Positions 16,089 to 49,571 of a stretch of 62,726 nt of DNA are shown here, piece after piece. Positions within the stretch are counted from its first letter, which is position 1. Every line of letters begins with the position of its first letter. Made by a program: the position numbers and the translations under genes. The stretch spans positions 1-62,726 of the forward strand of contig JAIYAL010000122.1 in NCBI GenBank assembly GCA_027489095.1. The letters are read 5' to 3'. The notes under the pieces are model-generated. The model was not told the DNA's origin. It made no database searches and saw nothing but the letters and a program-made list of their open reading frames with translations. This DNA is from Erythrobacteraceae bacterium (lineage in GTDB: Bacteria; Pseudomonadota; Alphaproteobacteria; Sphingomonadales; Sphingomonadaceae).

Positions 16089-16134
16089 CAAGTAGTGTCT
16101 GCTACACGGCTTTCGAATTGGCATGGGGATTCGT

Positions 16135-17343
16135 ATGAAGATCACCTCTGCACGCGTCATCGTCACTTGCCCGGGGCGGAACTTTGTCACGCTCAAGATC
16201 GAAACCGATCAGGGGGTCTACGGGATTGGCGATGCGACGCTGAACGGGCGCGAGTTGTCCGTGGTTGCCTATCTTCAAGAGCACGTCGTGCCCTGTCTGA
16301 TCGGCATGGACCCGCGCCGGATCGAGGATATCTGGCAATACCTTTACAAGGGGGCCTACTGGCGGCGCGGCCCGGTCACCATGCGCGCGATCGCCGCGGC
16401 CGACATGGCGCTGTGGGACATCAAGGCGAAGATGGCCGGGATGCCGCTGTACCAATTGCTCGGCGGGCGCAGCCGCGATGGCGTGATGGTCTATGGCCAC
16501 GCCAACGGCAGCGACATTGCCGAGACGGTCGAAGCCGTGGGGGCCTATATCGACATGGGCTACAAGGCGATCCGCGCGCAGACCGGCGTGCCCGGCGTGA
16601 AGGATGCCTACGGTGTCGGGCGCGGCAAGCTCTACTACGAGCCCGCCGATGCCGCGCTGCCCTCGGCCACTGGATGGGACACACGAAAAGCGCTGAACTA
16701 TGTGCCCAAGCTGTTCAAAAAGCTGCGCGAGACGTATGGCTTCGATCACCACCTGCTCCACGATGGCCACCATCGCTACACCCCGCAGGAAGCGGCCAAT
16801 CTGGGCAAGATGCTGGAGCCGTACCAGCTGTTCTGGCTCGAGGATTGTACCCCGGCGGAAAATCAGGAAGCCTTCAAGCTGGTGCGCCAGCACACCGTGA
16901 CGCCTCTGGCTGTTGGCGAGATTTTCAACACGATCTGGGACGCCAAGGACCTGATCCAGAACCAGTTGATCGACTATATTCGTTGCACCGTCGTCGGGGC
17001 AGGGGGGCTCACGCACTTGCGCCGGATCGCGGACCTTGCTGCCATGTATCAGATCCGCACCGGCTGCCACGGCGCGACCGACCTTTCGCCCGTGACCATG
17101 GGCTGCGCACTGCACTTCGATACCTGGGTGCCGAACTTCGGGATCCAGGAATACATGCGCTACAGCGAAGAAACCGACGCGGTGTTCCCGCACGACTATC
17201 ATTTCGAGAAAGGTGAGCTGTTCGTGGGCGAAACGCCCGGCCACGGCGTCGACATCGACGAGAAGCTCGCCGTGAAGTACCCGTACAAGCCCGCCTACCT
17301 GCCGGTCGCCCGGCTGGAAGACGGCACGATGTGGAGCTGGTAA
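16135..17343 (+). CDS. manD: D-mannonate dehydratase, enolase superfamily (ManD/RspA)
   Basis: 402 residues, the length of the structurally characterised Novosphingobium aromaticivorans enzyme, which dehydrates D-mannonate to 2-keto-3-deoxygluconate. The catalytic residues fall at the reference numbering: Tyr159 (KDAYGVG), Asp210 and His212 (LLHDGHHRY), Glu236 (WLEDCTP) and Glu262 (VGEIFNT). The magnesium site is therefore complete and this should be a high-activity ManD rather than a promiscuous homologue. The ATG at 16135 is chosen over 16123 because GGGGA lies 7 nt before it and it gives the reference N-terminus. It leads a plus-strand operon with a short secreted protein and kdgK. It replaces the unrelated UxuA found in enteric bacteria. 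Confidence 0.95.
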
Positions 17344-17638: not shown

Positions 17639-18526
17639 ATGGCCCGCATCGTCGTCATCGGTGAAGGCATGCTGGAACTCGTGTCGAAGGGTGACGCCTG
17701 GCAACTCGGCTTTGGCGGCGACACGCTGAACACCGCGATCCATCTCGCACGTGCCGGTCACGATGTGGCCTACATTACCGCGCTGGGCCGGGACCCGCTG
17801 AGCGCGGACCTGAAAGCGAGGTGGGCAGCCGAGGGGCTGGACACCTCGCTAGTTCTCGATCATCCGAGCCGCAGCACCGGGCTCTACGCCATTTCGACCG
17901 ACGCACATGGTGAGCGCAGCTTCGCCTATTGGCGCGATAGCAGTGCCGCGCGGGACATGTTTGGCGCGCCGGGGATGGCGGAGGCTCTGGCGCGTGCAGA
18001 ACGCGCTGATCTGCTCTGCTATTCCCTGATCACGTTGGCGATCCTGCCGCCCGGTGACCGCGAGAGAGTTTTTGGGCTTGCGCGCTCCCTTCGCGCGCGC
18101 GGCGCTCGCGTTGCGTTCGACGGCAACTATCGGGCGCGGCTGTGGGCCAGCGCCGAAGAAGCGTGTGCGGCACGCGATGCGGCGATCGGCCTAGCCGATA
18201 TCGGCCTGCCCACGCTGGAGGACGAGAGCCTGCTCTCGGGAGCAGACAGCGCGGACGCCGTGGCGGACCACTGGAACGGGCTGGGCTGCGCAGAAACGAT
18301 CGTCAAGCTGGGGCCGCTTGGGTGCCGTCTGCCCGAAGGCGCAATCTTGCCGCCGCCTGAGGTCCTTTGGCCGATCGATACCAGCGGTGCAGGCGATGCC
18401 TTCAACGGCGGCTATCTGGCTGCGCGGATGCGCGGCGCGAGCACAGTGGATGCAGCAAGTGCCGGACACGCGCTGGCGGGCTGGTGCGTCATGCGCAGCG
18501 GCGCAATCCCGCCTGCCGACACCTGA
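17639..18526 (+). CDS. kdgK: 2-keto-3-deoxygluconate kinase (PfkB family)
   Basis: 295 residues of the ribokinase/PfkB family. The N-terminus VVIGEGMLELV, the substrate-binding GFGGDTLNTAIHLARAG and YITALGRDPLS, the lid-side sequence YWRDSSAARDM, and the C-terminal DTSGAGDAFNGGY with the catalytic aspartate are all typical of KdgK. The reaction is KDG + ATP to 2-keto-3-deoxy-6-phosphogluconate, the meeting point of both uronate routes in this island and the entry to the Entner-Doudoroff pathway. It follows manD in the same operon. The aldolase that would complete the path is not in the window. Confidence 0.92.
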   Translation: MARIVVIGEGMLELVSKGDAWQLGFGGDTLNTAIHLARAGHDVAYITALGRDPLSADLKARWAAEGLDTSLVLDHPSRSTGLYAISTDAHGERSFAYWRDSSAARDMFGAPGMAEALARAERADLLCYSLITLAILPPGDRERVFGLARSLRARGARVAFDGNYRARLWASAEEACAARDAAIGLADIGLPTLEDESLLSGADSADAVADHWNGLGCAETIVKLGPLGCRLPEGAILPPPEVLWPIDTSGAGDAFNGGYLAARMRGASTVDAASAGHALAGWCVMRSGAIPPADT

Positions 18527-18780: not shown

Positions 18781-18784
18781 CGGG

Positions 18785-27397: not shown

Positions 27398-27417
27398 TCG
27401 TGCACCGGCACGACGCT

Positions 27418-29960: not shown

Positions 29961-31489
29961 GTCGCAGGTTCCTCGTCCCACGCCCCGCACATCTTCAGGA
30001 AGGCCCTATGCTCGGGCAGCGCACTTGCCACTTGCGCGTAGCCGGTCCGCAATTGCTGCATCATTTCCGCAATGCGCTTGTTGTCAAACGAGTCGACGAT
30101 CGGGTCGTAACCCTGCGGCCATTGGTTCTGCCCGAGCATCACGGCAACCCAGCTGGGCAGGCCGAACAGTTCGGCGTTATCCCTGAAACTGCGTCCCTTG
30201 CCGCGAAACAAGGCGAGCTTTTCGGCAAGCGACGCCGGGATTTCCATCGTCCGGCAATAGTTCCAGAACGGCGAGTCATCGCGCTGTGTGGCATGGTAGT
30301 GCAGGATGATGAAATCGCGGACATCTTCGAAGATGTCCTGCATGCTGCGATTGAACCATTCCCGTTCAGCCGGATCGAACCGGCGGTCGGGGAACACCGC
30401 CAGCAAGCGCGAAATGCCGGCCTGGATGAGATGGATGCTCGTCGATTCGAGCGGCTCCAGAAAGCCACTGGCAAGTCCCAGTGACACGACGTTGTGGCTC
30501 CATGTGTTCTTGCGGCGTCCGGTAACGAAGCGGATCTGCCGTGGGGCCGCCAAAGGCTCGGTCTCGAGGTTGGCGAGCAGCTGGGCCTCGGCAGCGGCAT
30601 CATCGAGAAACGCGCTGGAATAGACAATGCCATTTCCGGTGCGGTGTTGCAGCGGAATGTTCCACTGCCAGCCGGCACCATGCGCGCTCGAGCGGGTGTA
30701 GGGTCGCAGCTCTTCAGGATTGGCGGTGGGTACAGCAATGGCGCGGTCACATTTGAGCCAGTGCGTCCAGTCTTCGTAACCGGTCTTGAGCGTCTCTTCG
30801 ATCAGGAGCCCGCGAAACCCCGAGCAATCGATGAACAGGTCTCCTTCAAGAGTCTGGCCATTCTCGGTCGCCACGCTTTCCACAAAGCCATCCGATGATC
30901 GCTGCTTCACGCTTGTGATCTTGCCTTCGACGCGCTGCACGCCGTTATCGGTCGCGAATTTGCGGAGGAAGCGCGCGTAGAGCGAGGCGTCAAAGTGAAA
31001 CGCATAGAAGAGCTCTGAAATGGCCGATTTCGCGGATTCCGACGGACGCCCGAACGTACCGCGCGCTGCCGCCATGGCGCTCATCGAGTATTGCGCAATG
31101 TCGGATTGGTCCCCGAACTGGCGCTGGCTCAGAAACAGCTGGTGGAAATGGACGCCGTGAACATCTCGGCCAAAGTTGCCAAACGGGTGGAAATAGCGCT
31201 CGCCGATCCGGCCCCAGTTGGCGAATTCGATCCCGAGCTTGAACGTACCCTTGGTGGCCCGCAGAAACGCGTTCTCGTCGATCTCGAGCATGGTGTTGAA
31301 GTTCAAGATCGGCGGAATTGTCGCTTCGCCGACGCCGACGATGCCGATTTCGTCCGACTCGACCAGCGTGATGCGCGTCATCCCGTTCGATTGGAATTTG
31401 GACAACGCCGCCGCGGCCATCCAGCCGGCAGTCCCGCCGCCGACAATGACGATGCTGCGAATGCGGTGCTGGTCGTTGGCGAGACTCAT
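29957..31489 (-). CDS. Flavin-dependent halogenase (tryptophan-halogenase family), copy 4
   Basis: 510 residues. FAD motif [17 protein letters not shown]; catalytic Lys84 in [22 protein letters not shown] signature; [12 protein letters not shown] with the catalytic Glu. It is the first gene of a three-gene minus-strand operon (halogenase, halogenase, cupin) divergent from the TonB receptor. Two LacI-type palindromes lie in the 265-bp promoter region shared with the receptor, so halogenase and receptor expression are probably tied. A flavin reductase must be supplied from elsewhere. Confidence 0.88.
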
Positions 31490-35071: not shown

Positions 35072-35269
35072 CTATGCGGACACGTGAAGCGCTTCGAGGC
35101 GAGACATGCTAGGTAGAAAGCCGTTTCTTCGTGTGGCGTCTGGCGATACTGTTCGCAATGCGACGGCTTCGCAGCCGACGACATCCCGCATGATCTGCCG
35201 TAACCCTCGGGTACGTTCCTGCGCGCGCGGCAGGATCCTGCAAGTCTTGCGCCGGAGCAGTTGGCGCAA

Positions 35270-35746
35270 ATGATCTCGCTGGTTATCAATGGAGCCCCAC
35301 GCAGTCTCGATGTGCCGGAAGATTTTCCGTTGCTCTGGGCGCTGCGGGACATCCTCGGCATGATGGGCACCAAGTTCGGCTGCGGGATCGCGCAATGCGG
35401 CGCCTGTACCGTGCATGTCGATGGGGTAGCCGTACGGGCCTGCATCACCGAAGTCGGCAGCGTTGCCGGATCCAAAATCACGACCATTGAAGCCATGGCC
35501 GATACCCCTATCGGTACAGCACTGCAGTCCGCATGGCTTGAACTCGATGTTGTGCAGTGCGGCTATTGCCAGGCCGGACAGATCATGTCGGCAGGGGCGC
35601 TGCTGGCCGAAAACCCCGCGCCAGACGATGCGGCCATCGACGCCGCGATGGAAGGCAACATCTGCCGTTGTGCAACCTATCAGCGCATTCGTGCGGCAAT
35701 CAAGCTGGCATCGCGCCAGCCGCAAGCCGACCGTCGGCACCAATGA
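35270..35746 (+). CDS. (2Fe-2S) small subunit of an isoquinoline 1-oxidoreductase-type molybdenum hydroxylase
   Basis: 158 residues. The N-terminal plant-type cluster is formed by Cys38, Cys43, Cys46 (FGCGIAQCGACTV) and Cys58. The C-terminal cluster is formed by Cys97 and Cys100 (QCGYCQAGQ) with Cys132 and Cys134 (GNICRCATYQRI). It transfers electrons from the molybdopterin subunit encoded next, whose start overlaps this stop by 4 bp. The start is ATG 35270 or TTG 35261; GGAG at 35253 does not decide. Members act on N-heterocycles or aldehydes. No cytochrome c subunit or XdhC-type chaperone gene is adjacent. Confidence 0.9.
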   Translation: MISLVINGAPRSLDVPEDFPLLWALRDILGMMGTKFGCGIAQCGACTVHVDGVAVRACITEVGSVAGSKITTIEAMADTPIGTALQSAWLELDVVQCGYCQAGQIMSAGALLAENPAPDDAAIDAAMEGNICRCATYQRIRAAIKLASRQPQADRRHQ

Positions 35747-37905
35747 CGACGGTCTCGCGCCGTCTGTTCCTGCAAATTGGCGCTGGCGCGACGGGGGCGT
35801 TGGTCGTCGGATTTGCCTGGAGGGCGGCGGCGCCCGCAGACACGCGCCCCTTGCTGCTGGGCAACTATGTCTCCATCGACATCGATGGAACGGTGACGGT
35901 GCGCGCTCCGAATCCCGAAATTGGTCAAGGCGTCAAGACCAGCCTGCCGATGCTCATCGCCGAGGAACTCGATGTCGACTGGGACCGGGTACGGGTTGAG
36001 ATGGCGCCCAATGATCCGACACGCTTTGGACAGCAAGATGCCGGCGGCAGCATGTCCATCCACCGCAACTATACGGCGCTCCGGCAGGTCGGTGCGGCCG
36101 CGCGGTGGATGCTCGTCGATGCTGCGGCACGGCGGCTGCAGGCTTCGCATGGTGAATTCAGGACTGCCCACGGGCGCGTGCACCACAGCAGCGGCCAGAG
36201 TTTTGATTATGGCGAATTGGCGGCCGCGGCATCTTTGCTGCAACTTCCAGATCCGAAATCGCTGGTGCTCAAGGACCCGGCGAAATTCTCGATCATAGGA
36301 ACGTCGCGGCGTGGTGTTGATAGCCCCCGGATTGTCCGTGGCGAGCCGATATTCGGCATCGACATGACGCTCCCGGACATGGCCTACGCGGTCTATGTCA
36401 AGGCGCCGGTATTCGGTGCACGCCTGCTGCGCTGCGAGCTTGCTGCAGCGCGCGCCGAACGTGGTATCATCGACGTGTTTACCCTGAAAGGGCAGGGCGA
36501 CAGGCACGGCTTGCAGGATGGCATTGCCATCATTGCATCAAGTTGGTGGTACGCGCAGGCGGCACGCGCCAAGCTTGAGCCACTTTGGGATACAGACATA
36601 GGCGTGGGCCATGACAGCACGCGCTACCGCGAAGAGGCGCATTCACTCCTCGCAAAGCCGGGCACGGTGCTTGAAGAAAAGGGCGATGTCGAAGCTGCGC
36701 TTGCGCAGGCAGCGCAGCGCCTCACCGCTGATTATGAAGTGCCGTTTCTGGCGCATGCAACGCTCGAGCCGCAGAACTGCACGGCGCGCGTCAAAGGTGA
36801 CTCTGTCGAGATATGGGCACCGACCCAGACACCCGAGGAAGGGCGGCAGCTGGTCGCGCGAACGCTGGGCGTGGCGCCCGACAGTGTGATCGTCCACATG
36901 CGCCGTGCGGGTGGTGGCTTTGGGCGGCGGCTGGAAAATGACTACATGGCGGAGGCCGCTTCAATCGCACGCCATGCCGGTGTTCCGATCAAGCTCGTGT
37001 GGTCGCGTGAGGATGACTTTGCGCATGATTTCTACCGTGCCGCCAGCTACCATCGGCTGCGCGCTGGCCTGGACAAGAAGGGCCGAGTCAGCGCGTTTGC
37101 CGCGCATGGTGTGACCTTCGCGCATGGCAGTGAAGTTGCTCAGGCTGCGGGTATAGAAGGCAATGGCTTTGAGTCGCGTGTCGTGCCCGCATCGCGCCTC
37201 GAGCAATCGCTGATTCCGACCATTGTGCCGACCGGTTACCTGCGCGCGCCGGTGTCCAATGGCTTGGCATTTGTCCGTGAATGCTTCTGGGACGAACTGG
37301 CATTGGCGGCAAACATGGACCCCGTAGCGTTTCGCCTTGCAGCTTTGAGCAACGGTAGCAGCAGCGGCGGCAGCTTCGATGCGGCACGGATGCGCGCCGT
37401 TCTGGAAGCCGTCGCATTGCGCTCCAATTGGGCAAAGGCCCGGTTGGCCAAGGGCCAGGGCATGGGCGTCGCGTGCTATTTCAGTCATAGTGGGTACTTC
37501 GCTGAAGTCGTCCGCGTTCGAGTGGATGCCGATGGTCATTGGCAGGTCCTCAATGTCTGGGTGGCCGGCGACATTGGAAGCCAGATCGTCAACCCGCTTG
37601 CGGCACGCGCGCAAGTAGAGGGCGCAGTGATGGACGGTATCGGCTCGATGCGTGCCGAGATCACGGTGGTGAACGGTGCGGCGATCCAGACCAATTTCGA
37701 CGGATTTCCGCTCCTGCGGATGCCCGAGGCACCCGTGGTCGATGTCGAATTCGTTATGAGTGCCGCAGCGCCGACCGGGTTGGGTGAGCCGGCGCTACCG
37801 CCGGTGCTGCCGGCAGTCGCGAATGCCATCCATGCTGCTTGCGGTGCCCGCGTTCGGCAACTGCCATTGACAGCGGAGCGCATACAAGCCGCACGGCGGG
37901 GCTGA
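35743..37905 (+). CDS. Molybdopterin-binding large subunit, isoquinoline 1-oxidoreductase-type (IorB family)
   Basis: 720 residues. A twin-arginine signal (SRRLFLQIGAGATGALVVGF) indicates export of the folded, cofactor-loaded enzyme. Family motifs include NPEIGQGVKTSLPMLIAEEL, FGQQDAGGSMSI, RRAGGGFGRRLENDY, and the catalytic glutamate Glu682 in TGLGEPALPP. The pair should oxidise an aldehyde or N-heterocycle in the periplasm. In a sugar-acid island, oxidation of a sugar aldehyde, or of an aromatic attached to the glycan, is more plausible than isoquinoline, but this is inference. It is convergent with the GH3 gene, 10 bp apart. Confidence 0.9.
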   Translation: MTTVSRRLFLQIGAGATGALVVGFAWRAAAPADTRPLLLGNYVSIDIDGTVTVRAPNPEIGQGVKTSLPMLIAEELDVDWDRVRVEMAPNDPTRFGQQDAGGSMSIHRNYTALRQVGAAARWMLVDAAARRLQASHGEFRTAHGRVHHSSGQSFDYGELAAAASLLQLPDPKSLVLKDPAKFSIIGTSRRGVDSPRIVRGEPIFGIDMTLPDMAYAVYVKAPVFGARLLRCELAAARAERGIIDVFTLKGQGDRHGLQDGIAIIASSWWYAQAARAKLEPLWDTDIGVGHDSTRYREEAHSLLAKPGTVLEEKGDVEAALAQAAQRLTADYEVPFLAHATLEPQNCTARVKGDSVEIWAPTQTPEEGRQLVARTLGVAPDSVIVHMRRAGGGFGRRLENDYMAEAASIARHAGVPIKLVWSREDDFAHDFYRAASYHRLRAGLDKKGRVSAFAAHGVTFAHGSEVAQAAGIEGNGFESRVVPASRLEQSLIPTIVPTGYLRAPVSNGLAFVRECFWDELALAANMDPVAFRLAALSNGSSSGGSFDAARMRAVLEAVALRSNWAKARLAKGQGMGVACYFSHSGYFAEVVRVRVDADGHWQVLNVWVAGDIGSQIVNPLAARAQVEGAVMDGIGSMRAEITVVNGAAIQTNFDGFPLLRMPEAPVVDVEFVMSAAAPTGLGEPALPPVLPAVANAIHAACGARVRQLPLTAERIQAARRG

Positions 37906-37915
37906 GCATCTGCGA

Positions 37916-40411
37916 TTACGGCGCCGGGCAGGCAGCGCCCGGCCGTGTTTCGACCAAGCGTATATCATTGATCGAGACATCGAGGCTGCCACCGGTTTCG
38001 AGGCGCATGACCGTTGGCGTTGCCGCAAGATCCTGCGCCTTGAAGCAACTCAGCGGCACGGCCAGTGTCGCGAACTTTCCGGTCGGCAGCGCTTTGACGA
38101 GCGCGGTTGCCGGCAGCCAAGCCGAGCCGATCCCGAGGCGTACGTCTCCTGTCGGCATCGTATTGAGTTTGATATCGACGGCCAGCATCATCGCGCCATT
38201 GGCTTCGCGGGCAATGTCGCTTGGCTTGTCGGCGCCGACTTCAAGCGCCGCAACGCCCTTGCCGTTCCACAGAGCGCGGACCGCGCCGCCATCCTGCGGT
38301 TCCAGGGTCAAGGCTTGCGCGCCATACAGCGCCGCGCGGGTGCCGACGTAGTCCATGCGATGATCCTGCGTGTCGGCCAGCATGAGCCGATAGCCGTTCC
38401 ACACCGTACCCTTGCTGAAATAGACGTTCCGCTCGCCATACCGTACCGTGCCGGCAGCTTCGATGAGCAGAGGTGTCTCCACGGGCTTGGCGTATGTCAG
38501 CCCGAAGCCATAGGCGAACTGCGGGTCATAATTGGCGTCGCCGACGTTCAGCGGAGTCTGATCGGGTCGCCGCGGCCAAGAAAAGCTGAGACGTCCCTGA
38601 AAGTCGTGTTGGGGTTTGCCGTCGCGATCTGCGATCAGCACATCGGCGATGCCCTGGCCTTCCGAGCCCGGTAGCCAGGCCGCAACGAAGGCATCAGCAG
38701 CATTGATATGGGCGTTCACGTAGAGCGGCCGGCCGGACATCATCACTGCGACAACCGGGATGCCTTGGGCTTTGAGCTTCTTGAGCAGCTCGAGGCTTTC
38801 GCTATTGCCATAGTGAAGCGCAACGTCAGACTGATCGCCCATGAACTCGGCATAGGGTCGCTCGCCAAACACGACGATCGCGACATCCGGCTTCTGTGCG
38901 CTGGTACCATCGGGGCTCAGCCAGGCCTGGCCGCCCCCAGCTTCGATTTGCGCCTTGAGCCCTTCGTAGATCGATGTCGCTCCGTGAAAATCTCCGGGGC
39001 CATTGTCGGCGCCTTGCCAGCTCAGCGTCCAGCCACCTGCTTGCATCGCGATGTTATCGGCGCCTTCGCCGGCGATCAGGACACGCGCCGAGGGCCGGAT
39101 CGGCAATGCCCCGTTGTTTTTCAGAAGCACCATCGATTTGCGGACCGCCTCGCGCGCCACGGCGCGGTGTTCCGGCGTGCCGATCGGCTTGAAGGTGGCC
39201 GGACGATTGGCCGGCGAGGGCTCGTCGAACACGCCCATGCGGAATTTGACGCGCAAGATGCGGCGCACCGCGTCGTCAAGCCGGGCTTGCCGAATGACAC
39301 CGGCTTTGACGTCGCGGACGAGATTGGCATGCAGCAGCTTCCAGTCTTGCGGCTGGTTGTAGATATCGAGGCCGGCATTGAACGCCGTGGCACAGTCCGA
39401 GTTCGTGCAACCGGCAATTTGACCATGTGCCAGCCAGTCGCCCATGACGAAGCCGTCAAACCCCATGCGGCGCTTGAGAATGTCGGTCAGCAGCACCTTG
39501 TTGGCGTGCGTCTTGATGCCGCCCCACGAATTGAACGACGCCATAATGGACTGTGTGCCGGCGTTGATCGCATCGACGTAGGCCGTGGCATGCAGCCGGA
39601 TCATCTCGGCTTCCGAGATGGTCGAGTCCCCCTGATCGCGTCCGCCGTCGGTCGATCCATCGCCCAGAAAATGCTTGGCGGTCGAAATGACATGCGTGCT
39701 GTCGAGGAAGGTCGAACCTTCGCCCTGTATGCCGTTGACCATCGCTGCGGCATACTTCTTCACGATGCCGGGATCTTCGGAATAGCTTTCGTAGGTGCGC
39801 CCCCAGCGATCATCGCGGGCGACCGCGATCGTCGGCGCAAAGGTCCAGTCCATGCCTGTCGCCCGCACTTCGGCTGCGGTTACCTCGCCGATGCGCTTCA
39901 GCAGGTCGGGATCGTTGGTGGCTCCTAGGCCGATATTGTGCGGGAACAGCGTGGCGCCATAGACATTGTTGTGACCATGGACCGCGTCGGAGGCCCAGAT
40001 CAAGGGGATCCGCAGCCGGTTCTGCGGCGCGACAGAGGCCTGATAATAGGGCTCAATCAAGCCAACCCAGTCCGCAACGCTGGCGTGCTTGTTGCCGCCC
40101 GGCACAGCGCCGCCGCCGTTTTCAATCGAGCCGATATGAAACTGGATGACCTCGGCGGGCGAAATCGTCTTCCATTCAGGCTGGATGATCTGCCCGACCT
40201 TTTCTTCGATGGTCATTTGCCGGATCAAGACGGTGATGCGCGCTTCAATCTTCGGATCAAGCGCGATCACGGACTTGGCTGTTGGCCACAGATCCGGCTT
40301 TAGCGGAGCGGTGCCGGCCGCCAAAACTGCGGTACTTGTACCCGACAGAATCGCCAGCGCGATTCGCAATGCCACCCGCTTTTTCTGCCCCGGCGCGCCT
40401 GTTCTGGCCAT
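37916..40411 (-). CDS. ExoP-like glycoside hydrolase family 3 beta-glucosidase, second paralogue
   Basis: 831 residues with a signal peptide (RIALAILSGTSTAVLAAG). It has the same architecture as the first GH3: barrel with ITVLIRQMTIEEKVGQIIQP, nucleophile Asp325 in FVMGDWLAHG, KHFLGDGSTDGGRDQGD loop, AVRKSMVLLKNNGALPI, WLPGSEGQGIADVL, then a C-terminal beta domain. The ATG at 40411 follows GGGAGG closely; the longer frame to 40444 would abut the operator. The two paralogues differ enough to have distinct linkage or residue preference. A LacI-type palindrome lies 36 bp upstream. Confidence 0.92.
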   Translation of the reverse strand: MARTGAPGQKKRVALRIALAILSGTSTAVLAAGTAPLKPDLWPTAKSVIALDPKIEARITVLIRQMTIEEKVGQIIQPEWKTISPAEVIQFHIGSIENGGGAVPGGNKHASVADWVGLIEPYYQASVAPQNRLRIPLIWASDAVHGHNNVYGATLFPHNIGLGATNDPDLLKRIGEVTAAEVRATGMDWTFAPTIAVARDDRWGRTYESYSEDPGIVKKYAAAMVNGIQGEGSTFLDSTHVISTAKHFLGDGSTDGGRDQGDSTISEAEMIRLHATAYVDAINAGTQSIMASFNSWGGIKTHANKVLLTDILKRRMGFDGFVMGDWLAHGQIAGCTNSDCATAFNAGLDIYNQPQDWKLLHANLVRDVKAGVIRQARLDDAVRRILRVKFRMGVFDEPSPANRPATFKPIGTPEHRAVAREAVRKSMVLLKNNGALPIRPSARVLIAGEGADNIAMQAGGWTLSWQGADNGPGDFHGATSIYEGLKAQIEAGGGQAWLSPDGTSAQKPDVAIVVFGERPYAEFMGDQSDVALHYGNSESLELLKKLKAQGIPVVAVMMSGRPLYVNAHINAADAFVAAWLPGSEGQGIADVLIADRDGKPQHDFQGRLSFSWPRRPDQTPLNVGDANYDPQFAYGFGLTYAKPVETPLLIEAAGTVRYGERNVYFSKGTVWNGYRLMLADTQDHRMDYVGTRAALYGAQALTLEPQDGGAVRALWNGKGVAALEVGADKPSDIAREANGAMMLAVDIKLNTMPTGDVRLGIGSAWLPATALVKALPTGKFATLAVPLSCFKAQDLAATPTVMRLETGGSLDVSINDIRLVETRPGAACPAP

Positions 40412-40446
40412 GTCATCCTCCCGAAGAATGCTGCTTGCAATCAATT

Positions 40447-40631: not shown

Positions 40632-41051
40632 ATGCAAACGCAAATCGAATTGGGCGAGGCCGAAGCGCGCATCGCCATTGATGTGTGTCGCGCCGAACTG
40701 CTGCGTCGCGGCAAAAGTGCGTCGATCGCCGTAGGTGATCGCTATGGCGAGTTGATTGCACTGTGGCGCATGGACGGTGCCGCACTGCCGTCCACGACGA
40801 TTGCGACAAACAAGGTTTACACAGCATCGCGGCTTGGTCAGCCGAGTGGTGAGGTTGGCCGGGCTGCAGTCGCGGAGCAATGGGACGTGCACTATCACGG
40901 CGACTTGCGCTACGTCGGCTGGGACGGCGGTGCACCGGTTGTCTATGAAAAACGCTGCGTGGGCTCGGTCGCGATCAGTGGCCTGAGCGGCGCCGAAGAT
41001 CTCGAAATTGCCGAAATCGGCGTGGCTGCCATTCTCGCGACGGTTGGATAA
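40632..41051 (+). CDS. GlcG/HbpS family (heme-binding-like) protein
   Basis: 139 residues, the normal size for the GlcG/HbpS domain. It has the typical opening ELGEAEARIAIDVCRAELLRRG, the SIAVGDRYGELIALWRMDGA strand-turn-strand, ATNKVYTASRLG, and the glycine-rich VGSVAISGLSGAEDLEIAEI. No signal peptide is visible. Some members bind heme or corrinoid, others occur in glycolate or sugar-acid operons without known activity. It is the first gene of the plus-strand operon with GH105, DUF4861 and the lyase-lactonase fusion, 4 bp before the next start. Confidence 0.85.
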   Translation: MQTQIELGEAEARIAIDVCRAELLRRGKSASIAVGDRYGELIALWRMDGAALPSTTIATNKVYTASRLGQPSGEVGRAAVAEQWDVHYHGDLRYVGWDGGAPVVYEKRCVGSVAISGLSGAEDLEIAEIGVAAILATVG

Positions 41052-41055
41052 GCGG

Positions 41056-42258
41056 ATGCTGCGAAATCTCTTGAACGCGGCCATGGCGGGTCTTGCCGTG
41101 GTGGCCATGCCGCCCGTTGCTGCACAGGCTGCACCGGAATCGAGCGTGGCGAAACCGGTGCCCGCGACCTATCGCGAAATCATCACGCTCGCCGAGAGAG
41201 TGGCCGACAATCAACTTGCGATGCTCGCCGCGAACGAGGTCCATCCGCGAAACGCGCAGGATTCAATCGATCCAAAGGGCTGGGTCCAAGGCACCTACTT
41301 CTTCGCGCTGACGCATCTTGCCGCGCGCAGCGAGCAGCCGCGCTACCGTGACTTCCTGCTGGCGCGGGGCGCTTCGAACAACTGGCAGCTCGGGCGGAGG
41401 CTCTATCACGCCGATGACCACCTCGTTGGGCAAAGCTATCTGTGGGCGGCCCGCAATGGCGCCGGCGCTGCAGCCTACGCGCCGATGCGGGAGTCCCTCG
41501 ACCTGATCGTCGCCAATCCGCCAAGCGCAGACCTCGCATTCGTCGAGCGCCCGGCCGGCGCCGGAGATCCGCTGTGCTTTGATCGCTGGTGCTGGTGCGA
41601 CGCGCTATTTATGTCGCCTGCTGGATTTTATGGCATGACCGCCGCGACCGGCGACCCACGCTACGCTGCCTACGCCACTCGGGAATTCTGGGCCGCGACC
41701 GATTTCCTGTTCGACCCGGTGGAAAAGCTCTACTTCCGCGATAGCCGCTTTTTCGACCGGCGTGGCCCGAATGGCGAGAAGATATTCTGGAGCCGCGGCA
41801 ACGGCTGGGTTTTCGCAGGTCTTGCGAATATCCTGCAGATACTCCCTGCCAATGATCCCGAGCGGCCACGCTTTGAAGCGCAGTTCCGCACCATGGCATC
41901 GCGGCTGATCACGCTGCAACGGCCCGATGGCTATTGGAACCCGAGCCTGCTCGGCGATCCGGCCAAGGCGCTGCCTGAATCGAGCGGTACGGCATTTTTT
42001 GTCTATGGTTTGGCCTGGGGCATTCATGCCGGTCTGCTCGACGCCAAGGTGTACACACCAAACGTTCGCCTCGGCTGGCAGGCGCTGGTTCGCGCCGTGC
42101 ACCCCAATGGCAAGCTCGGCTGGGTCCAGCCCATCAGTGATCGTCCCGAACTCAACAGCTATGAGGACACGCAGATCTACGGCGTCGGCGGGTTCCTGCT
42201 TGCGGCCGGAGCCGTCGCCGATCTCGCACCTGGGGCACCACGTGATGCACCGCGCTAG
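41056..42258 (+). CDS. Secreted GH105-type unsaturated glucuronyl/rhamnogalacturonyl hydrolase
   Basis: 400 residues with a signal peptide (LLNAAMAGLAVVAMPPVAAQA). The (alpha/alpha)6 barrel motifs are YHADDHLVGQSYLW (residues 117-130), WCWCDALFMSPAGF with the conserved acid Asp182, FWSRGNGWVFAGL and QRPDGYWNPSLL. GH105/GH88 enzymes remove the 4,5-unsaturated uronic acid that a polysaccharide lyase leaves at the non-reducing end. The presence of a lyase domain two genes downstream and of kduI-kduD in the island fits exactly. Unsaturated glucuronate is favoured over galacturonate by the glucuronate genes around. Confidence 0.88.
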   Translation: MLRNLLNAAMAGLAVVAMPPVAAQAAPESSVAKPVPATYREIITLAERVADNQLAMLAANEVHPRNAQDSIDPKGWVQGTYFFALTHLAARSEQPRYRDFLLARGASNNWQLGRRLYHADDHLVGQSYLWAARNGAGAAAYAPMRESLDLIVANPPSADLAFVERPAGAGDPLCFDRWCWCDALFMSPAGFYGMTAATGDPRYAAYATREFWAATDFLFDPVEKLYFRDSRFFDRRGPNGEKIFWSRGNGWVFAGLANILQILPANDPERPRFEAQFRTMASRLITLQRPDGYWNPSLLGDPAKALPESSGTAFFVYGLAWGIHAGLLDAKVYTPNVRLGWQALVRAVHPNGKLGWVQPISDRPELNSYEDTQIYGVGGFLLAAGAVADLAPGAPRDAPR

Positions 42259-43195
42259 TGCGGCCCTGCTGGCCTTGGTGCTCTCAGCATCGGCCAATGC
42301 CGCCTATGCCGGTACAGCGCAGGCGTCGCTGATGGTGCGGTTCGATGGTACGCGTGTTGATGACGTGATGGCTGGCGGCGAAGTGCGCGGTGTCACCAAA
42401 TTCACGGTTCCCGCCGATCACGTCATCCACGACGGTCTGTTCCCTTCGGAAGGCATTGGCTGGGAGTCCGATCGCGTCGCCTATCGGCTCTACCTCGACG
42501 AGCGCAATGCCGTGGACATTTTCGGCAAGCGCTTGCCCGCGCCCATCATGCAAACGGCGGGCATCGGCCCGCATTCCTATCACGACATGGCAGACTGGGG
42601 GATGGACATCTTCCATGTCGGGCCATCACTCGGGCTCGGCAGCATTGGGGTGTTGCGCGACGGCAAGGCGCAGCAAATCGGCAAATCGGCCATCACGGTG
42701 AATATTGAAGACGCAGGCCCGCGCCGAGCCGCCTTCACCGTGACTTCGGCGGGCTTTGGCGCCGACAGCGCGACGCTGACCACACGCTACACCATTGCTG
42801 CCGGCACGTCCGTCACGCGCGTCCATGCCCGTGTCGATGGCAAGTCCCCCGCAATGGTCACCGGCCTCATCAAGAACCCGGATACAGAAGTGTTTCGGGC
42901 AGCGGCGAACCCGAAAGCACGCTGGGGCTATATCGCGACCTGGGGCAAACAGAGCCTGGCCGGTGACTTGCTCGGCCTCGCGGTGTTCTATCGGCTTGAT
43001 GCGGTCCGCATGGCCGACGGTGATGACGGCGCCAGCCACTTTGTCGTCTTCAAGGATGCGCAAGCCATCGACTATGCCTTTGCCGCGCGCTGGCAACAGG
43101 AAGCCAATGGCCACGGCGCGATAACCACCCGGGCCGCGTTTGCCGCATGGCTGGAAACACAGCGCCGCATGCTGGAAGCCGATGACGCGCATTGA
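42245..43195 (+). CDS. DUF4861 family secreted protein
   Basis: 316 residues with a signal peptide (ALLALVLSASANAAYAG). The body shows GIGWESDRVAYRLYLDERN, DIFGKRLPAPIMQTAG, SYHDMADWGMDIFHVG and WGYIATWGKQSL, all typical of DUF4861. The family occurs in polysaccharide loci of Bacteroidota and Proteobacteria next to GH88/GH105 enzymes and lyases; its activity is not known to me. A beta-sandwich acting on or binding acidic oligosaccharides is a reasonable guess. It overlaps GH105 by 14 bp at the start and the lyase fusion by 14 bp at the end. Confidence 0.85.
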   Translation: MHRASAALLALVLSASANAAYAGTAQASLMVRFDGTRVDDVMAGGEVRGVTKFTVPADHVIHDGLFPSEGIGWESDRVAYRLYLDERNAVDIFGKRLPAPIMQTAGIGPHSYHDMADWGMDIFHVGPSLGLGSIGVLRDGKAQQIGKSAITVNIEDAGPRRAAFTVTSAGFGADSATLTTRYTIAAGTSVTRVHARVDGKSPAMVTGLIKNPDTEVFRAAANPKARWGYIATWGKQSLAGDLLGLAVFYRLDAVRMADGDDGASHFVVFKDAQAIDYAFAARWQQEANGHGAITTRAAFAAWLETQRRMLEADDAH

Positions 43196-45296
43196 ACGGC
43201 GCTGGCTGACGATCATCGTCGGCGCATGTTTGCTCGCAATGAACACGGCAACAGCGGGGGCGCGTGAATTCGTCCACCCGGGGGCGCTGAACAACGCGCA
43301 CGATCTGGCGTTTGTCCGCGCGCGCCTGGCCAGCGGCGAGCAGCCGTGGGCGGCAGCGTTCGAGCCGGTGCGCGCGCTGGCGACACCAACGACCGCTGCG
43401 CCGCGGCAAATCGATTCCACAAAATCGAGCCGCGATTCCGAGGTGGCCCGCGATGCGGCGCAGCGGACTTATGCCAATGCGCTGGCCTGGGCCTATACCG
43501 GTGACCTGCTGTATGCGCATCAGGCTGTGGCGGCGCTTGATCATTGGTCGCAGCTTGACGGCTTTGTTGGCGGCACCGATCAGGACAAGCTTGTCGCGGG
43601 CTGGATCGGTGTGCCGCTTGCGCAGGCCGCAGAGATCATGCGGGGGTGTGCGTGCTGGGCTCCGGCCGATGTGGCGCGCATGCAGGAGATGTTTCGCCGG
43701 GCCTTCTATCCGCAACTGGCGACCGCCAGCCGCTGGAACGGTAACGTGGATCTGACCCAGATATCGGCCTTGATGTCGATCGCGGTGTTCAACGATGACG
43801 CTGCGATGTTCGATATCGGTATCGCGCGCCTGCGGGCCCGTGCACCGGCCTATTTCCACCTTGTGACCGACACCGGGGTGCCGCTGCTGGGTGCCGTCCA
43901 GAGCGTCGATGAAAGATGGTATCACCCAGCGAAATGGGTCGATGGTCTGACGCAGGAAAGCTGCCGCGACAACAATCATCACGCGCAGTTCGGCATGGCG
44001 TCGGCGCTGCAAGCGGCGGAAGTGGCGTGGAACCAGGGCATCGATATCTACGGCGAGAACCGGGCGCGCTATGTGGCGACGATGGAACTGTTGGCCTTGC
44101 AGATGCGCAGCAGGAGCATGCAGGGCGTCTGTGCCAGGGACCGGACATCGGCGGAGCTGCTGGATACCTGGAGCATCGGCTACAACCATTACCACGGCCG
44201 CATGGGCATGGCGCTGCCACAGACAGCGGCGCTGCTGTCGGGGCCGATGCAGGCACGCGGGCGGTCGGACTGGAACGTTTTCCATGAACGCTTGACCCAT
44301 GGCGGCATTCGGGCTGCGCATCGTGTTCAAGCTGCGGCCGTCGTGACAATCGAGCCTCGGGACGCAGCGCTTGCCCGGCTGATCGCGCCGGATGCCGCCG
44401 CCGAAACGCTTGCCGGCGGCTTCAAATGGTCCGAGGGGCCGGTGTGGATTCCCGATGCCGCGTCCCGTGGCGGCGGCTATCTGCTGTTTTCCGATGTGCC
44501 GGCCAACATCGCCTATCGCTGGGATGCCAGCACGGGCGTGACCGCGTTTCTCAACCCTTCGGGCGGCCAGTCGGGCCCCGAACTGCGCGAGCCCGGCACC
44601 AACGGCCTGATCCCTGCCACGACCGCCGGTGCGATCATTGCGGCCGATCACGGCCACCGCGCGATCGTGCAGATCGATCTGGCGTCCGGCACGCGCACGA
44701 CGCTGGCCGACCGCTTTGCCGGGAAACGCCTTTCGAGTCCGAATGACGTGGTGCTGGCCAGATCGGGCGACCTGTACTTCACCGATCCGCCCTATGCTTT
44801 CGTCAGGGGGGATGCCTCACCGCTCAAGGAACAGCCGGTCAACGGGGTCTACCGGCGCGCGCCCGGCGGGCAGGTCACCCTGATCGACGGGTCGTTGGCG
44901 CGTCCCAACGGGATTGCGCTGTCGCCGGATGAAACCCGGCTCTATGTCGCCAACAGCGATCCGGGGCACGCCGTCTGGATGGTCTATGACCGCGCGGCAG
45001 ACGGCAGCATTTCAAACGGCCGCATCCTCAAGGACGTCACGGCGCGCGTCGGCGACGCGAACCCCGGTCTGCCTGACGGCCTCAAGCCCGACATCAACGG
45101 CAACCTCTTCGCCACCGGCCCGGGCGGTGTCTATGTGCTTGCCGCCGATGGCCGCGAGATCGGCTTGATCCGGGTCGACGGCGCGGTTGCCAATGTCGCT
45201 TTTGGCGGACCGGCGCGCGATACGCTTTACCTGACCTCCGGCAGCCGCTTGATCCGGTTGCCGACACTGACACGGGGCCATCAGACCGGACGTTGA
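43182..45296 (+). CDS. Fusion of an alginate-lyase-superfamily domain with an SMP-30/gluconolactonase domain
   Basis: 704 residues with a signal peptide (LTIIVGACLLAMNTATAGA). Residues about 30-385 form an (alpha/alpha)-type alginate lyase domain with WNGNVDLTQ (185-193), CRDNNHHAQFG (Asn264/Asn265, His266/His267) and IGYNHYHGRMG (Tyr334), the Asn/His/Tyr set used for beta-elimination at uronates. Residues about 391-704 form a six-bladed SMP-30 propeller with its metal ligands: Glu418 in WSEGPVW, Asn in SSPNDVVL and RPNGIALSPDETRL, Asp in ANSDPGH. The lyase half resembles PL38-like glucuronan/alginate lyases. No frameshift or internal start marks the junction near nucleotide 44340, so this is one polypeptide. 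It ends the GH105 operon. Confidence 0.85.
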   Translation: MTRIERRWLTIIVGACLLAMNTATAGAREFVHPGALNNAHDLAFVRARLASGEQPWAAAFEPVRALATPTTAAPRQIDSTKSSRDSEVARDAAQRTYANALAWAYTGDLLYAHQAVAALDHWSQLDGFVGGTDQDKLVAGWIGVPLAQAAEIMRGCACWAPADVARMQEMFRRAFYPQLATASRWNGNVDLTQISALMSIAVFNDDAAMFDIGIARLRARAPAYFHLVTDTGVPLLGAVQSVDERWYHPAKWVDGLTQESCRDNNHHAQFGMASALQAAEVAWNQGIDIYGENRARYVATMELLALQMRSRSMQGVCARDRTSAELLDTWSIGYNHYHGRMGMALPQTAALLSGPMQARGRSDWNVFHERLTHGGIRAAHRVQAAAVVTIEPRDAALARLIAPDAAAETLAGGFKWSEGPVWIPDAASRGGGYLLFSDVPANIAYRWDASTGVTAFLNPSGGQSGPELREPGTNGLIPATTAGAIIAADHGHRAIVQIDLASGTRTTLADRFAGKRLSSPNDVVLARSGDLYFTDPPYAFVRGDASPLKEQPVNGVYRRAPGGQVTLIDGSLARPNGIALSPDETRLYVANSDPGHAVWMVYDRAADGSISNGRILKDVTARVGDANPGLPDGLKPDINGNLFATGPGGVYVLAADGREIGLIRVDGAVANVAFGGPARDTLYLTSGSRLIRLPTLTRGHQTGR

Positions 45297-45390: not shown

Positions 45391-46410
45391 TCAGCCCGGC
45401 CCGCGCCCCGTCGAGCTGCGGATCACCAGCCGGTGCTGCAGAATTTCAGTCTGGCGGCCGGGCTCGTCCGGGTTGTCGATCGCATCGAGCAAGCGCCGTG
45501 CGGCATGGATGCCGATCTCGCGGGCGGGCTGCGCCACTGTCGACAATGGTGGATTGGCTATCGCAGCATAGCGCATGTCATCGAAGCCGAGCACCGATAG
45601 CGCGTCCGGTATGGACAGGCCGCGCCGGGCTGCCGCGCTCATGACGCCAAGGGCCATGTCGTCATTGGCGCAGAAGATGGCACTGGGCGGTGCGCCGGCC
45701 AGAATGTCGTTCGCGGCGTTGATGCCGCCGTTGACGCTGAGGTCGGCGTAGTGGACATTCGAACCGTCGAGCCCGGCATCGGCCATCGCGGCCACGAAGC
45801 CGCGCTCGCGGTCCAGCGTGACATAAGACTGCCGCGGCCCCGATACGAAGGCGATACGACGATGGCCGAGCCCGATCAGATAGGCTGTGGCCTCGCTGGC
45901 GGCGGCAAAATTGTCGATGTGGACGCTGGGCAGTTTGCGCAGTTCATCGCTCAGCGGTTCGAGGCCAATGACGATAGGCAAGTTGCGCGCCTTGTTCAGC
46001 TCGATGATCTTGCGGCTGAACGGCGGGACCGAACACAACAGGATCACCCCTTCGACCTGCTTGGCGACGAGCATTTCGATGAAGCTGGCCGGTTGGGCGG
46101 CATCGGGCCGCGATTCGGTCAGGATTACCGCATAGCGGCCGTCCAATACGCTGCGGATGCCGCCGACAACCTCGGAAAGCAGCCCGCTGCCGATCTCGTG
46201 AACGACCACGAGGATGATATTGGTCTTGCCGCGCCGGAAGCTCTGCGCCAGCGCATTGGGACTGAAGTTTATGTCGTCGATCACCTTCCGGACGCGCTGC
46301 AGCGTCTTTTTTCCCACCTTGTCGGGGTGGTTGAGGCACCGCGACACTGTCGAGATCGAAACCCCGGCGCGTTTGGCAACTTCGACGATCGTTGGGCTGG
46401 CCAAGCGCAA
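45391..46410 (-). CDS. LacI-family transcriptional regulator (island regulator 2)
   Basis: 339 residues from a TTG at 46410, preceded by AAGG with 5-nt spacing; this avoids the 80-bp overlap with the MFS gene that longer frames require. The helix-turn-helix is TIVEVAKRAGVSISTVSRCL, the hinge is SPNALAQSFRRG, and the effector domain has VEGVILLCSVPPF, YLIGLGHRRIAFVSGP, AIFCANDDMALG and LGFDDMRYA. It sits 26 bp after the hexuronate carrier gene in the same direction. A pair of GTGAAAACGTTGC motifs in front of that carrier and kduI are its likely targets. The ligand is probably a KDG-pathway intermediate. Confidence 0.88.
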   Translation of the reverse strand: MRLASPTIVEVAKRAGVSISTVSRCLNHPDKVGKKTLQRVRKVIDDINFSPNALAQSFRRGKTNIILVVVHEIGSGLLSEVVGGIRSVLDGRYAVILTESRPDAAQPASFIEMLVAKQVEGVILLCSVPPFSRKIIELNKARNLPIVIGLEPLSDELRKLPSVHIDNFAAASEATAYLIGLGHRRIAFVSGPRQSYVTLDRERGFVAAMADAGLDGSNVHYADLSVNGGINAANDILAGAPPSAIFCANDDMALGVMSAAARRGLSIPDALSVLGFDDMRYAAIANPPLSTVAQPAREIGIHAARRLLDAIDNPDEPGRQTEILQHRLVIRSSTGRGPG

Positions 46411-46436
46411 ATCTACCTTTGAAGCGAGGGCGGCAT

Positions 46437-47714
46437 TCAGGCCGTGTCGACGCGGGCGAGGCGCGGCGACAGAAGCTGTATGGCCACCAATGCGACAAAA
46501 TAGGCGCTCGCGCAAATTGCGAACAGGAGCGCGTAACCATGCGTTGTTTCGAGGATATGGCCGGTGAACAGAGCCATGCCCATGCCGCCTATGGCACCGA
46601 GTGTGCCGCCAATGCCAACCACCGAGCCCACCGCGTTCTGCGGAAACAGGTCGGACGGCAGGGTCATCAAATTCGCCGAGAACGCCTGATGTCCTGCGGC
46701 CGCCAGCCCGATCAGCAAGACCGCACCCCAGAGATTGCTCACATCCTGCGCAAACCAGATCGGTGCCACCATGCCAGCGCTGACCAGCATCGTCAGCTTG
46801 CGGGCAAGGTTCACGCTGAGCCCAGCGCGAATCAATCGCGATGACAACCAGCCGCCACCGACGCTGCCAAAGTCTGAAATCAGATAGATCGCGGCAAGCG
46901 GCAAGCCGAAGCTCTTGAGGTCCAGCTGGTAGCGTTCAAACAGATAGCCGGGCAGCCAGAACAGGAAAAACCACCAGATCGGATCGGTGAAGAATTTGCC
47001 CAGAGCATAGGCCCAGGTTTCGCGCCGGATCAGCACGCTGCCCCATGGCATCTGTGCGGTGCTGTCGGGCGGGTCCTGCCGGATGTAGTCAAGCTCGCGC
47101 GCCGACACCGACTTGCTGTCGTCCGGGCTGCGGTAGACCGCCCACCACGCGACCGCCCAGACGATCCCAAAACTGCCGGTCAGGAAGAACGCCATGCGCC
47201 AGTCAAACAGCAGGACGATGGCCGGGACGAGCAGCGGCGTGATGATCGCGCCGACATTGGAACCGGCATTGAACAATCCGATGGCGAAAGCGCGTTCGCG
47301 CTGCGGGAACCATTCGGTGACCGCCTTGATGCCGGCGGGAAAGCTCCCCGATTCGCCGATGCCGAGCCCGATGCGGGCCAGCGCAAACTGGCCGACCGAT
47401 CCCGCCAGGCCGTGGGCCATATGCGCCAGCGTCCAGATGACAATCGCCACCAGATAGCCGATCCGCGCGCCGACACGGTCAACCACGCGGCCGAAAGTGA
47501 CATAGCCGACGGCATAGGCAAACTGGAACCAGAAGACGATGCGCGCGAAATCGGCTTCGCTCCAGCCCATGTCGGCCTGCAACGTCGGCTTGAGAACGCC
47601 GAGCATCTGACGATCAATGTAGTTGATTACGGTCGCGGCAAACAGCAGCGCGACAATCACCCATCGATAGCGTCCCGGGCTGGTTTCCCCGGCACCGACC
47701 GACCGATCGTGCAT
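46437..47714 (-). CDS. MFS hexuronate/sugar-acid transporter (ExuT-like, ACS family)
   Basis: 425 residues with 12 predicted membrane helices. The first helix and loop, VIVALLFAATVINYIDRQML, are diagnostic of the anion:cation symporter family that carries hexuronates. LGIGESGSFPAGIKAVTEWF, NAGSNVGAIITPLLVP and RYQLDLKSFGLPLAAIY also match ExuT relatives. It should import glucuronate or unsaturated uronate across the inner membrane with protons. The ATG at 47714 follows GGGGGAGG by 8 nt. It is divergent from kduI-kduD with an inverted pair of LacI-type sites between, and precedes the LacI gene. Confidence 0.9.
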   Translation of the reverse strand: MHDRSVGAGETSPGRYRWVIVALLFAATVINYIDRQMLGVLKPTLQADMGWSEADFARIVFWFQFAYAVGYVTFGRVVDRVGARIGYLVAIVIWTLAHMAHGLAGSVGQFALARIGLGIGESGSFPAGIKAVTEWFPQRERAFAIGLFNAGSNVGAIITPLLVPAIVLLFDWRMAFFLTGSFGIVWAVAWWAVYRSPDDSKSVSARELDYIRQDPPDSTAQMPWGSVLIRRETWAYALGKFFTDPIWWFFLFWLPGYLFERYQLDLKSFGLPLAAIYLISDFGSVGGGWLSSRLIRAGLSVNLARKLTMLVSAGMVAPIWFAQDVSNLWGAVLLIGLAAAGHQAFSANLMTLPSDLFPQNAVGSVVGIGGTLGAIGGMGMALFTGHILETTHGYALLFAICASAYFVALVAIQLLSPRLARVDTA

Positions 47715-47768
47715 GACCAATGCCTCCCCCACCAACACCGGCTATGGCCAGCTTCAATGACACGATAT

Positions 47769-47940: not shown

Positions 47941-47991
47941 TGACCGGCGCCGACATCCTGTGCCGGGGGCATGCCGCCGAAGGAGCCTACC

Positions 47992-48825
47992 ATGTTTGCC
48001 AAGACCTTCTACGCAACGCATCCCGACATGATGGACGATGCGAGCAATGACGCGTTGCGCGATCGCTACCTAGCCGACGGCCTGTTTGCGCCGGGCGAGA
48101 TCCGGCTGGTCTATTCGCACGGCGAGCGTTTCATCCTTGGAGGGGCCGTGCCCGATGGGCGCACGCTGGTGTTGCCGTGCCAGACCGAGCCCGAAAGCGC
48201 TGCCGGCCATCCGCTGCTGGAACGTCGCGAGCTCGGGGTCGTCAACGTCGGCGCAGCCGGGGTTGTCACGGTCGACGGACAGCGTTTTGACATGGCGCCG
48301 CGTGATTGCCTCTATGTGCCGATGGGCAGTTCCGACGTGCGGTTTGAAGGCGCGGCAGCGCGCTTCTATCTCGTTTCATTGCCCGCGCACCGGGCGTTTC
48401 CCATCCGCAAGATCACGATTGCCGAAGTCACGCCGATGCAGCGCGGCAGCCTTGAGAACTCCAACGCCCGGTCGATCTATCAGCTGATCATTCCCGGCAC
48501 TTGCGATTCGGCACAGCTGGTCATGGGGCTGACCATTCTTGAGCCCGGCAGCGTCTGGAACACCATGCCACCCCATGTTCATGAGCGGCGCAGTGAAGTG
48601 TATCTCTACACCGGTCTTGGTGCCGAAGATCGGGTGTTCCACTATATGGGGCAGCCCGATGCGATGCGGCACATTCTGGTCGGTAACGACGAAGCCGTGA
48701 TTTCACCGCCATGGTCGATCCACATGGGCTCGGGAACCAGTGCCTATACGTTCATCTGGGCCATGGGCGGCGAGAATCTCGACTACTCGGACATGAACGT
48801 GCTCGATATCTGTCAGCTCAAATGA
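47992..48825 (+). CDS. kduI: 5-dehydro-4-deoxy-D-glucuronate isomerase
   Basis: 277 residues, the standard KduI length. It converts 4-deoxy-L-threo-5-hexosulose uronate, the opened form of unsaturated uronate, to 3-deoxy-D-glycero-2,5-hexodiulosonate. The zinc ligands of the cupin fold are in [14 protein letters not shown] (His195, His197, Glu202), with another histidine near the C-terminus in SIHMGSG. The ATG at 47992 follows AAGGAG. It overlaps kduD by 4 bp. Its presence shows that unsaturated uronates, hence a lyase reaction, are on the pathway. Confidence 0.93.
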
Positions 48826-49571
48826 TGTTCGATCTGAGCGGAAGAGTCGCGCTTGTCACCGGCGCCAACAGCGGGATCGGACAAGCCGTGGCGCTCGCGC
48901 TCGCAGGGGCGGGCGCCGACATAGCCACACTCGGGCGCAGCGCCGCCGATGCGACCGGTGCGCAAGTGCAGGCGCTCGGGCGGCGCTGGCTCGATGTTCA
49001 CGCCGACCTGTCGACTATAGCCTCCGTGCCTGGCGCTGTGGCAACAGCGCTTGAGACATTCGGGACCATCGATATTCTCGTCAACAACGCGGGCATCATT
49101 CGCCGGGCCGACGCCATCGACATGACCGAAGCCGACTGGGACGCAGTCCAGAACACCAACCTCAAGACGTTGTTCTTTCTGACACAGGCGGCGGCGCGAC
49201 CGATGCTGGCCCGCGGGTCGGGCAAGATCATCAACATCGCCTCGATGCTGAGCTTTCAAGGCGGCATCCGCGTGCCGGGATATACGGCGGCCAAGTCTGG
49301 CGTCGCAGGATTGACCCGTGCGCTGGCCAACGAGTGGGCGGCGCAAGGCGTCAACGTCAATGCCATCGCGCCGGGCTATATCGCCACCGCCAACACCGCC
49401 GCGCTTCAAGCGGATCCGATCCGCAGCCGTCAGATTGTCGAGCGCATTCCCGCAGGACGCTGGGGCCGGCCCGCTGATATCGGCGGTGCGGCCGTCTTCC
49501 TCGCATCCTCGGCTGCGGACTACATCAACGGACATGTGCTCGCCGTCGATGGCGGCTGGTTGGCGCGATAG
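48822..49571 (+). CDS. kduD: 2-dehydro-3-deoxy-D-gluconate 5-dehydrogenase (SDR)
   Basis: 249 residues of classical SDR type: cofactor motif [19 protein letters not shown] at about 88, catalytic Ser in [11 protein letters not shown], and YTAAKSG with the Tyr/Lys pair. The C-terminal GGWLAR tail is normal. It reduces 3-deoxy-D-glycero-2,5-hexodiulosonate to KDG with NAD(P)H, linking the lyase route to KdgK. The first of two adjacent ATGs (48822) gives the ATGA overlap with kduI; 48825 is possible. Coupling to kduI makes the assignment firm within the large SDR family. Confidence 0.9.

Follow-up and report, generated by a model that had tools for sequence, protein, structure and literature searches.

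A single gene that joins two enzyme domains lies in the 62,726-nucleotide stretch of contig JAIYAL010000122.1 (assembly GCA_027489095.1, Erythrobacteraceae bacterium, family Sphingomonadaceae; hereafter the window). The gene reads from an ATG at 43182 to a stop at 45294-45296, 704 codons and the stop with no internal stop codon, and it encodes a lyase-type domain followed by a lactonase-type domain. In Pfam, residues 80-218 match the alginate-lyase superfamily (PF05426; 32.3 bits against a cut-off of 22.2, E-value 9.2e-8) and residues 416-687 match SMP-30/gluconolactonase (PF08450; 142.2 bits against a cut-off of 26.3, E-value 2.9e-41), which bears out an earlier, sequence-only reading of this DNA that had proposed one continuous frame with both domains. 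The reading favoured here, with some reserve, is that of a lineage-specific fusion that yields one exported two-enzyme protein, a probable uronan lyase and a probable lactonase acting as independent modules.

A collection of genomes, one per species, was scanned with six exact peptide patterns, yielding 30 loci; such a scan requires exact short peptides, and the lyase half was matched by just two of the 30 (L032 and L057, the latter excluded from the lactonase alignment). Locus L032 (CANEVG010000083.1), from the Sphingomonadaceae metagenome-assembled genome (MAG) CE-Jul18-168, carries the same fused frame over residues 1-701, where the contig ends before the stop. The window and L032 share 95.0% DNA identity over 10,046 aligned bases and 90.8% over another 987. 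The ratio of non-synonymous to synonymous substitution rates (dN/dS, Nei-Gojobori) between the two is 0.165 in the lyase half (346 codons), 0.14 in the lactonase half (301 codons), and 0.20 at the junction (25 codons, with 3 changes only), in the same range as the 0.10, 0.185, and 0.22 of the neighboring GH3, molybdenum (Mo) subunit, and DUF4861 genes, respectively. Values well below 1 in both halves indicate that both are under purifying selection in this lineage. A frameshift at the junction, which the sequence-only reading had named as one finding that would refute it, is very unlikely, because a second assembly some 5% divergent in DNA has the same frame and selection acts on both halves. 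The gene fusion is real, rare, and maintained by selection; it was found in two draft assemblies of close relatives, which are two observations and not many.

The N-terminus of the fusion, MTRIERRWLTIIVGACLLAMNTATAGA, resembles a Sec signal as judged by eye only, and the protein is probably exported, in agreement with the earlier proposal of a secreted protein. Residues 1-29 show 5.5 non-synonymous and 0.5 synonymous changes between the window and L032, so that the signal region is seemingly unconstrained. Cys16 (43227-43229) lies within the motif IIVGAC and is also Cys in L032; by eye, a lipoprotein-like site is possible, which bears on whether the protein is anchored in the membrane or free in the periplasm. 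By eye, a second signal peptide was not seen at the junction, and within residues 366-412 the ATG, GTG, and TTG codons are limited to TTG371 and GTG388.

The origin of the join can be read from stand-alone relatives. The lyase was found in 5 of 114 genomes of the genus, four times as a stand-alone gene (L003, L004, L075, and L077; 47-49% identity) and once fused. The stand-alone lyases lack the lactonase part and end FHETLTHA plus one residue, the same point at which the fused lyase enters the propeller, and the segment that follows resembles, by eye, the start of stand-alone lactonases past their apparent own signal. These coincident ends and starts suggest a join of a lyase end to a mature lactonase start. 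In trees of 28 lyase and 54 lactonase rows (26 and 55 rows in the conservation table, in each case after removal of duplicated loci and of fragments that were short or weak), the fused lyase clusters with the four genus lyases (clade support 100/100), and the fused lactonase is sister to L083, a lactonase of Sphingomonas parapaucimobilis plasmid NZ_CP155753 (support 99/97). The latter, at 50% identity the highest among the free-standing lactonases seen, differs in being a separate gene beside fumarylacetoacetate-hydrolase-family and SDR genes, with no lyase annotated within 15 kilobases (kb). Among 11 lactonase loci of the order with flanking sequence, seven of the eight best matches adjoin a GH3 gene and have a LacI regulator close by, an arrangement seen in none of the three more distant ones; the kin of the fused lactonase thus accompany a beta-glucosidase-type gene, not a lyase. 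Taken from sequence, the gene looks like a lineage-specific fusion. Two observations on these relatives stand apart from its origin: one stand-alone genus lyase (loci L078-L081) adjoins, by eye, a GroEL-like gene, and a GH3-lactonase-LacI grouping recurs in the order (L084-L086 and L088-L091), suggesting a lactone step in the use of beta-glucosides.

How widespread is this architecture? With a match at an E-value of at most 0.001 counted per genome, and with the window's own genome included in the counts for genus, family, class, and phylum, lyase-bearing genomes number 1 of 397 in the family, 1 of 385 in the class, and 8 of 398 in the phylum. The corresponding counts for other phyla are 4 of 138 in that of a Bacteroidetes MAG, 17 of 125 in that of a Verrucomicrobia MAG, and 4 of 119 in that of a Streptomyces, that Streptomyces included. 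All counts above the genus are samples of larger groups, and the family, class, and phylum scans scored 4-5 first-look candidates per genome. Across a set of 150 loci, which overlap in many cases, the lyase profile picks out 57 frames at an E-value of 1e-5 or below and 62 at 1e-3. Seven of these also fit the lactonase profile, all of them copies of the fused gene (G000 or G1261), and the other lyase-bearing loci have no lactonase within the stretch covered. For many loci that stretch extends just ~1.5 kb past the match, and 12 other lyase-matched frames, most of them weak matches, are truncated at its end. A widespread fused architecture is not supported. The possibility, raised by the sequence-only reading, that the halves are always separate elsewhere holds outside one lineage as far as searched, and fails inside it, where the fusion is real in two assemblies. 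Of 72,556 plasmid records, 631 show a match to the whole protein, in no case over 80% of its length, and 18 match the lyase half; no relative turned up in viral contigs scanned with the lyase profile. Long frames upstream of lactonases in L024, L025, L035, L037, and L043 were judged by eye to be spurious open frames, not fusions. No paper on such a fusion was found by title in the PMC full-text literature, a search that did not extend to UniProt, InterPro, or CAZy and so does not show absence. Separately, lyase relatives in L124, L126, L129, and L150 occupy frames of 676-1162 residues with extra parts and no lactonase in the stretch covered (the frames of L129 and L150 being cut by its end), and five MAGs titled Bordetella parapertussis (L039, L044, L048, L055, and L061) have labels that look doubtful, because their lactonases group with those of environmental Betaproteobacteria MAGs.

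The lactonase half is the better defined of the two. Its model has a mean predicted local distance difference test (pLDDT) score of ~92, and its best PDB matches are 3e5z (Foldseek E-value 4e-23, template modeling score 0.91 on the target) and 3dr2 (XC5397; E-value 8e-21), bacterial gluconolactonases with the same propeller fold and a PF08450 match by sequence, which differ from the fusion in being free-standing and share 30-32% identity with it. The SMP-30 metal ligands claimed from the sequence stand: E418, N576, and D632 are kept in 55 of 55 rows and N521 in 54, and we take these four to be the Glu, Asn, Asn, and Asp of the metal site. The probable reaction of the propeller is the opening of a sugar lactone, with a divalent metal bound. 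Structures that share its fold carry the titles gluconolactonase, xylonolactonase, and DFPase, so the fold does not point to one substrate. The window's own genome has one PF05426 place and a second, separate lactonase.

For the lyase half, the best reading of the domain is that of a secreted enzyme that probably cleaves a uronan. All 13 members of one lyase alignment match PF05426 at an E-value of at most 0.01, and a low-confidence model is consistent with the PL5 alpha/alpha-toroid fold of A1-III and AlgL. Each of the six residues N188, E259, R262, D263, H267, and Q285 is retained by 24-26 of 26 rows. The motifs NNHH and YNHYH had been proposed as catalytic, and the proposal survives in part. 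In NNHH, the second His, H267, is the same in all 26 rows, but YNHYH is only partly conserved (Y334 in 12, N335 in 16, H336 in 20, and Y337 in 18 of 26 rows, with F at 337 in six) and becomes FHHFH in the genus's four stand-alone lyases, both Tyr being replaced by Phe; these Tyr residues are therefore not strictly required in the family.

The surrounding genes, listed in the table, fit utilization of a polymer from which unsaturated uronate and glucuronate are released, possibly with a second sugar as the GH3 substrate. The locus also holds a TonB receptor and, in total, two GH3 and two LacI genes; no sulfatase was matched by Pfam in the 40 window frames scanned. The GH88, DUF4861, and fusion genes overlap consecutively and so read as one operon. 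Relatives of the DUF4861 gene occur in 14 of 199 family genomes; one, in another genus of the family, adjoins a sulfatase and KduI, and among six DUF4861 neighborhoods from the family KduI is present in four and GH88 in two. Elsewhere in the window, four tryptophan-halogenase-family genes and a cupin_8 gene lie beside the TonB receptor (24379-31489) within the sugar-utilization locus, and a 359-residue frame with no Pfam match (18686-19765) has similar sequences near LacI in L086, L088, L090, and L091.

Coordinates of the fused gene, its parts, and neighboring genes in the window
Feature	Position	Strand	Basis and remarks
Fused lyase-lactonase gene	43182..45296	+	704 residues; sequence, Pfam; same frame in L032
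Probable Sec signal peptide, residues 1-27 (ends ATAGA)	43182..43262	+	By eye from sequence
Candidate alpha/alpha-toroid uronate lyase domain, residues 28-375	43263..44306	+	PF05426; fold search with low-confidence model; residue conservation
Conserved lyase residues N188, E259, R262, D263, H267	N188 43743-43745; H267 43980-43982	+	Conservation table
Junction, residues 376-400	44307..44381	+	Begins at stand-alone lyase end (...LTHxx), continues into mature start of stand-alone lactonases
SMP-30/gluconolactonase propeller, residues 401-700	44382..45281	+	PF08450; PDB 3e5z/3dr2
Metal ligands E418, N521, N576, D632	44433-44435; 44742-44744; 44907-44909; 45075-45077	+	Conservation table
DUF4861 protein	42245..43195	+	PF16153; shares 14 bases at its end with the fusion start
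GH88-family glycosidase (unsaturated uronyl hydrolase type)	41008..42258	+	PF07470; overlaps DUF4861
GH3 glycosidase	37916..40444	-	PF00933/PF01915; divergent from GH88-DUF4861-fusion genes
[2Fe-2S] subunit, xanthine-dehydrogenase-family oxidoreductase	35261..35746	+	All matches below curated cut-offs
Mo-cofactor subunit, same oxidoreductase	35743..37905	+	Start assumed; PF02738/PF20256; NCBIfam all below cut-offs
LacI-family regulator	45391..46515	-	Pfam scan
MFS transporter	46437..47738	-	Best NCBIfam D-galactonate transporter subfamily, 252.5 bits, below cut-off 395
KduI, 5-dehydro-4-deoxy-D-glucuronate isomerase	47971..48825	+	NF002091, 372.5 bits, cut-off 250
KduD, 2-dehydro-3-deoxy-D-gluconate 5-dehydrogenase	48711..49571	+	TIGR01832, 377.7 bits, cut-off 338.85; true start probably inside frame; two other KduD models below their cut-offs
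UxaC glucuronate isomerase	13868..15280	-	NF002794, 573 bits, cut-off 387
ManD D-mannonate dehydratase	16123..17343	+	NF043051, 731.6 bits, cut-off 550
PfkB-family sugar kinase	17639..18526	+	Best NCBIfam KdgK, 262 bits, below cut-off 400

Under the favored reading, the N-terminal alpha/alpha-toroid would cleave a glucuronate-containing polysaccharide by beta-elimination and the C-terminal SMP-30-type propeller would open a sugar lactone using its bound divalent metal, each as an independent module, the two sharing one signal peptide and one expression unit in a uronan/glucuronate locus. Modules that act independently, with a shared signal and a shared promoter region, make the most economical mechanism and the most likely one. 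Direct coupling through an oxidized end is possible, with chain cutting by the lyase and lactone opening by the lactonase on one oligosaccharide, for instance at a reducing end oxidized by the Mo-dependent oxidoreductase; overall, we consider this unlikely. The covalent joining of a lactonase with intact ligands to the lyase speaks for coupling, as does the upstream oxidoreductase pair (35261-37905), which lies 5-8 kb from the fusion, is kept in L032, and could supply a lactone. However, the pair is present in none of the eight best lactonase-match loci among 100 relatives (18-19.5 kb), seven of which have GH3, the Mo enzyme scores below every NCBIfam cut-off, and no confident inter-domain model was obtained (predicted template modeling score 0.51 for the fusion). 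Less credible still is a dedicated lyase-lactonase for oxidized uronan ends, in which a lactone made by the Mo dehydrogenase is opened by the propeller and the toroid then depolymerizes onward. If that were true, a periplasmic Mo dehydrogenase would make a reducing-end lactone from which the tethered propeller would yield an aldonate, and an oxidative branch of uronan breakdown would reside in one polypeptide whose lyase center lacks the PL5/PL38 His-Tyr pair.

A number of results weigh against independent modules that are both active. With regard to gene context, the lyase and lactonase are absent from all six DUF4861 neighborhoods fetched from the family, so that the operon is not a conserved unit, and the four stand-alone genus lyases share no neighbor with the window locus in 6.4-19.9 kb. 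With regard to structure, the lyase-half model was built from three sequences and has a mean pLDDT of 51, and a Foldseek search with it gave no match at an E-value of 0.001 or below. With regard to the active site, the catalytic His of A1-III directly follows the Asn in an NNH motif (N191-H192). No row of the 26 has a His right after N188, whose alignment to A1-III is of moderate confidence, the residue being W, V, K, or Q (V189 in the fusion); in low-confidence alignments the position of the PL5/PL38 catalytic Tyr (Y246/Y298) falls at or beside H267 and is not Tyr. The fusion lyase is 10-14% identical to the PL5 lyases A1-III and AlgL (PF05426), from which it differs in these positions and in its attached lactonase, and 10-12% identical to the PL38 lyase BoPL38, whose H243 and Y298 (PMC13169297) are unmatched as His and Tyr in weak alignments. 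Because the PL5/PL38 His and Tyr find no counterpart, we infer lyase chemistry from the fold, the neighboring genes, and the conserved polar residues. The same differences would suit a lyase half that serves for binding or as a scaffold, or whose lyase chemistry is altered, with the lactonase as the useful enzyme, a proposal that appears improbable given the six polar residues kept in nearly every row and the dN/dS of the lyase half. Finally, the idea that the frame is an assembly or sequencing artefact hiding two genes can be rejected as highly implausible: both carriers are multi-contig (223 contigs for the window genome, a MAG for L032) and no isolate carrier was found, but two assemblies ~5% apart have the same frame, both halves are under selection, and neither a signal peptide nor any start-type codon other than TTG371 and GTG388 is visible at the lactonase start.

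Both halves of the protein are known kinds of enzyme, and their join is rare. The lyase subfamily is present in several phyla, with a core of N188, R262, D263, H267, and Q285 that differs from the described PL5/PL38 active sites. If the halves are independent, as seems most likely, the gene would be an ordinary fusion of two secreted enzymes. If both are active, it would be a naturally occurring enzyme that performs two steps on uronic-acid polysaccharides, and would allow a test of whether lactone opening is part of uronan breakdown.
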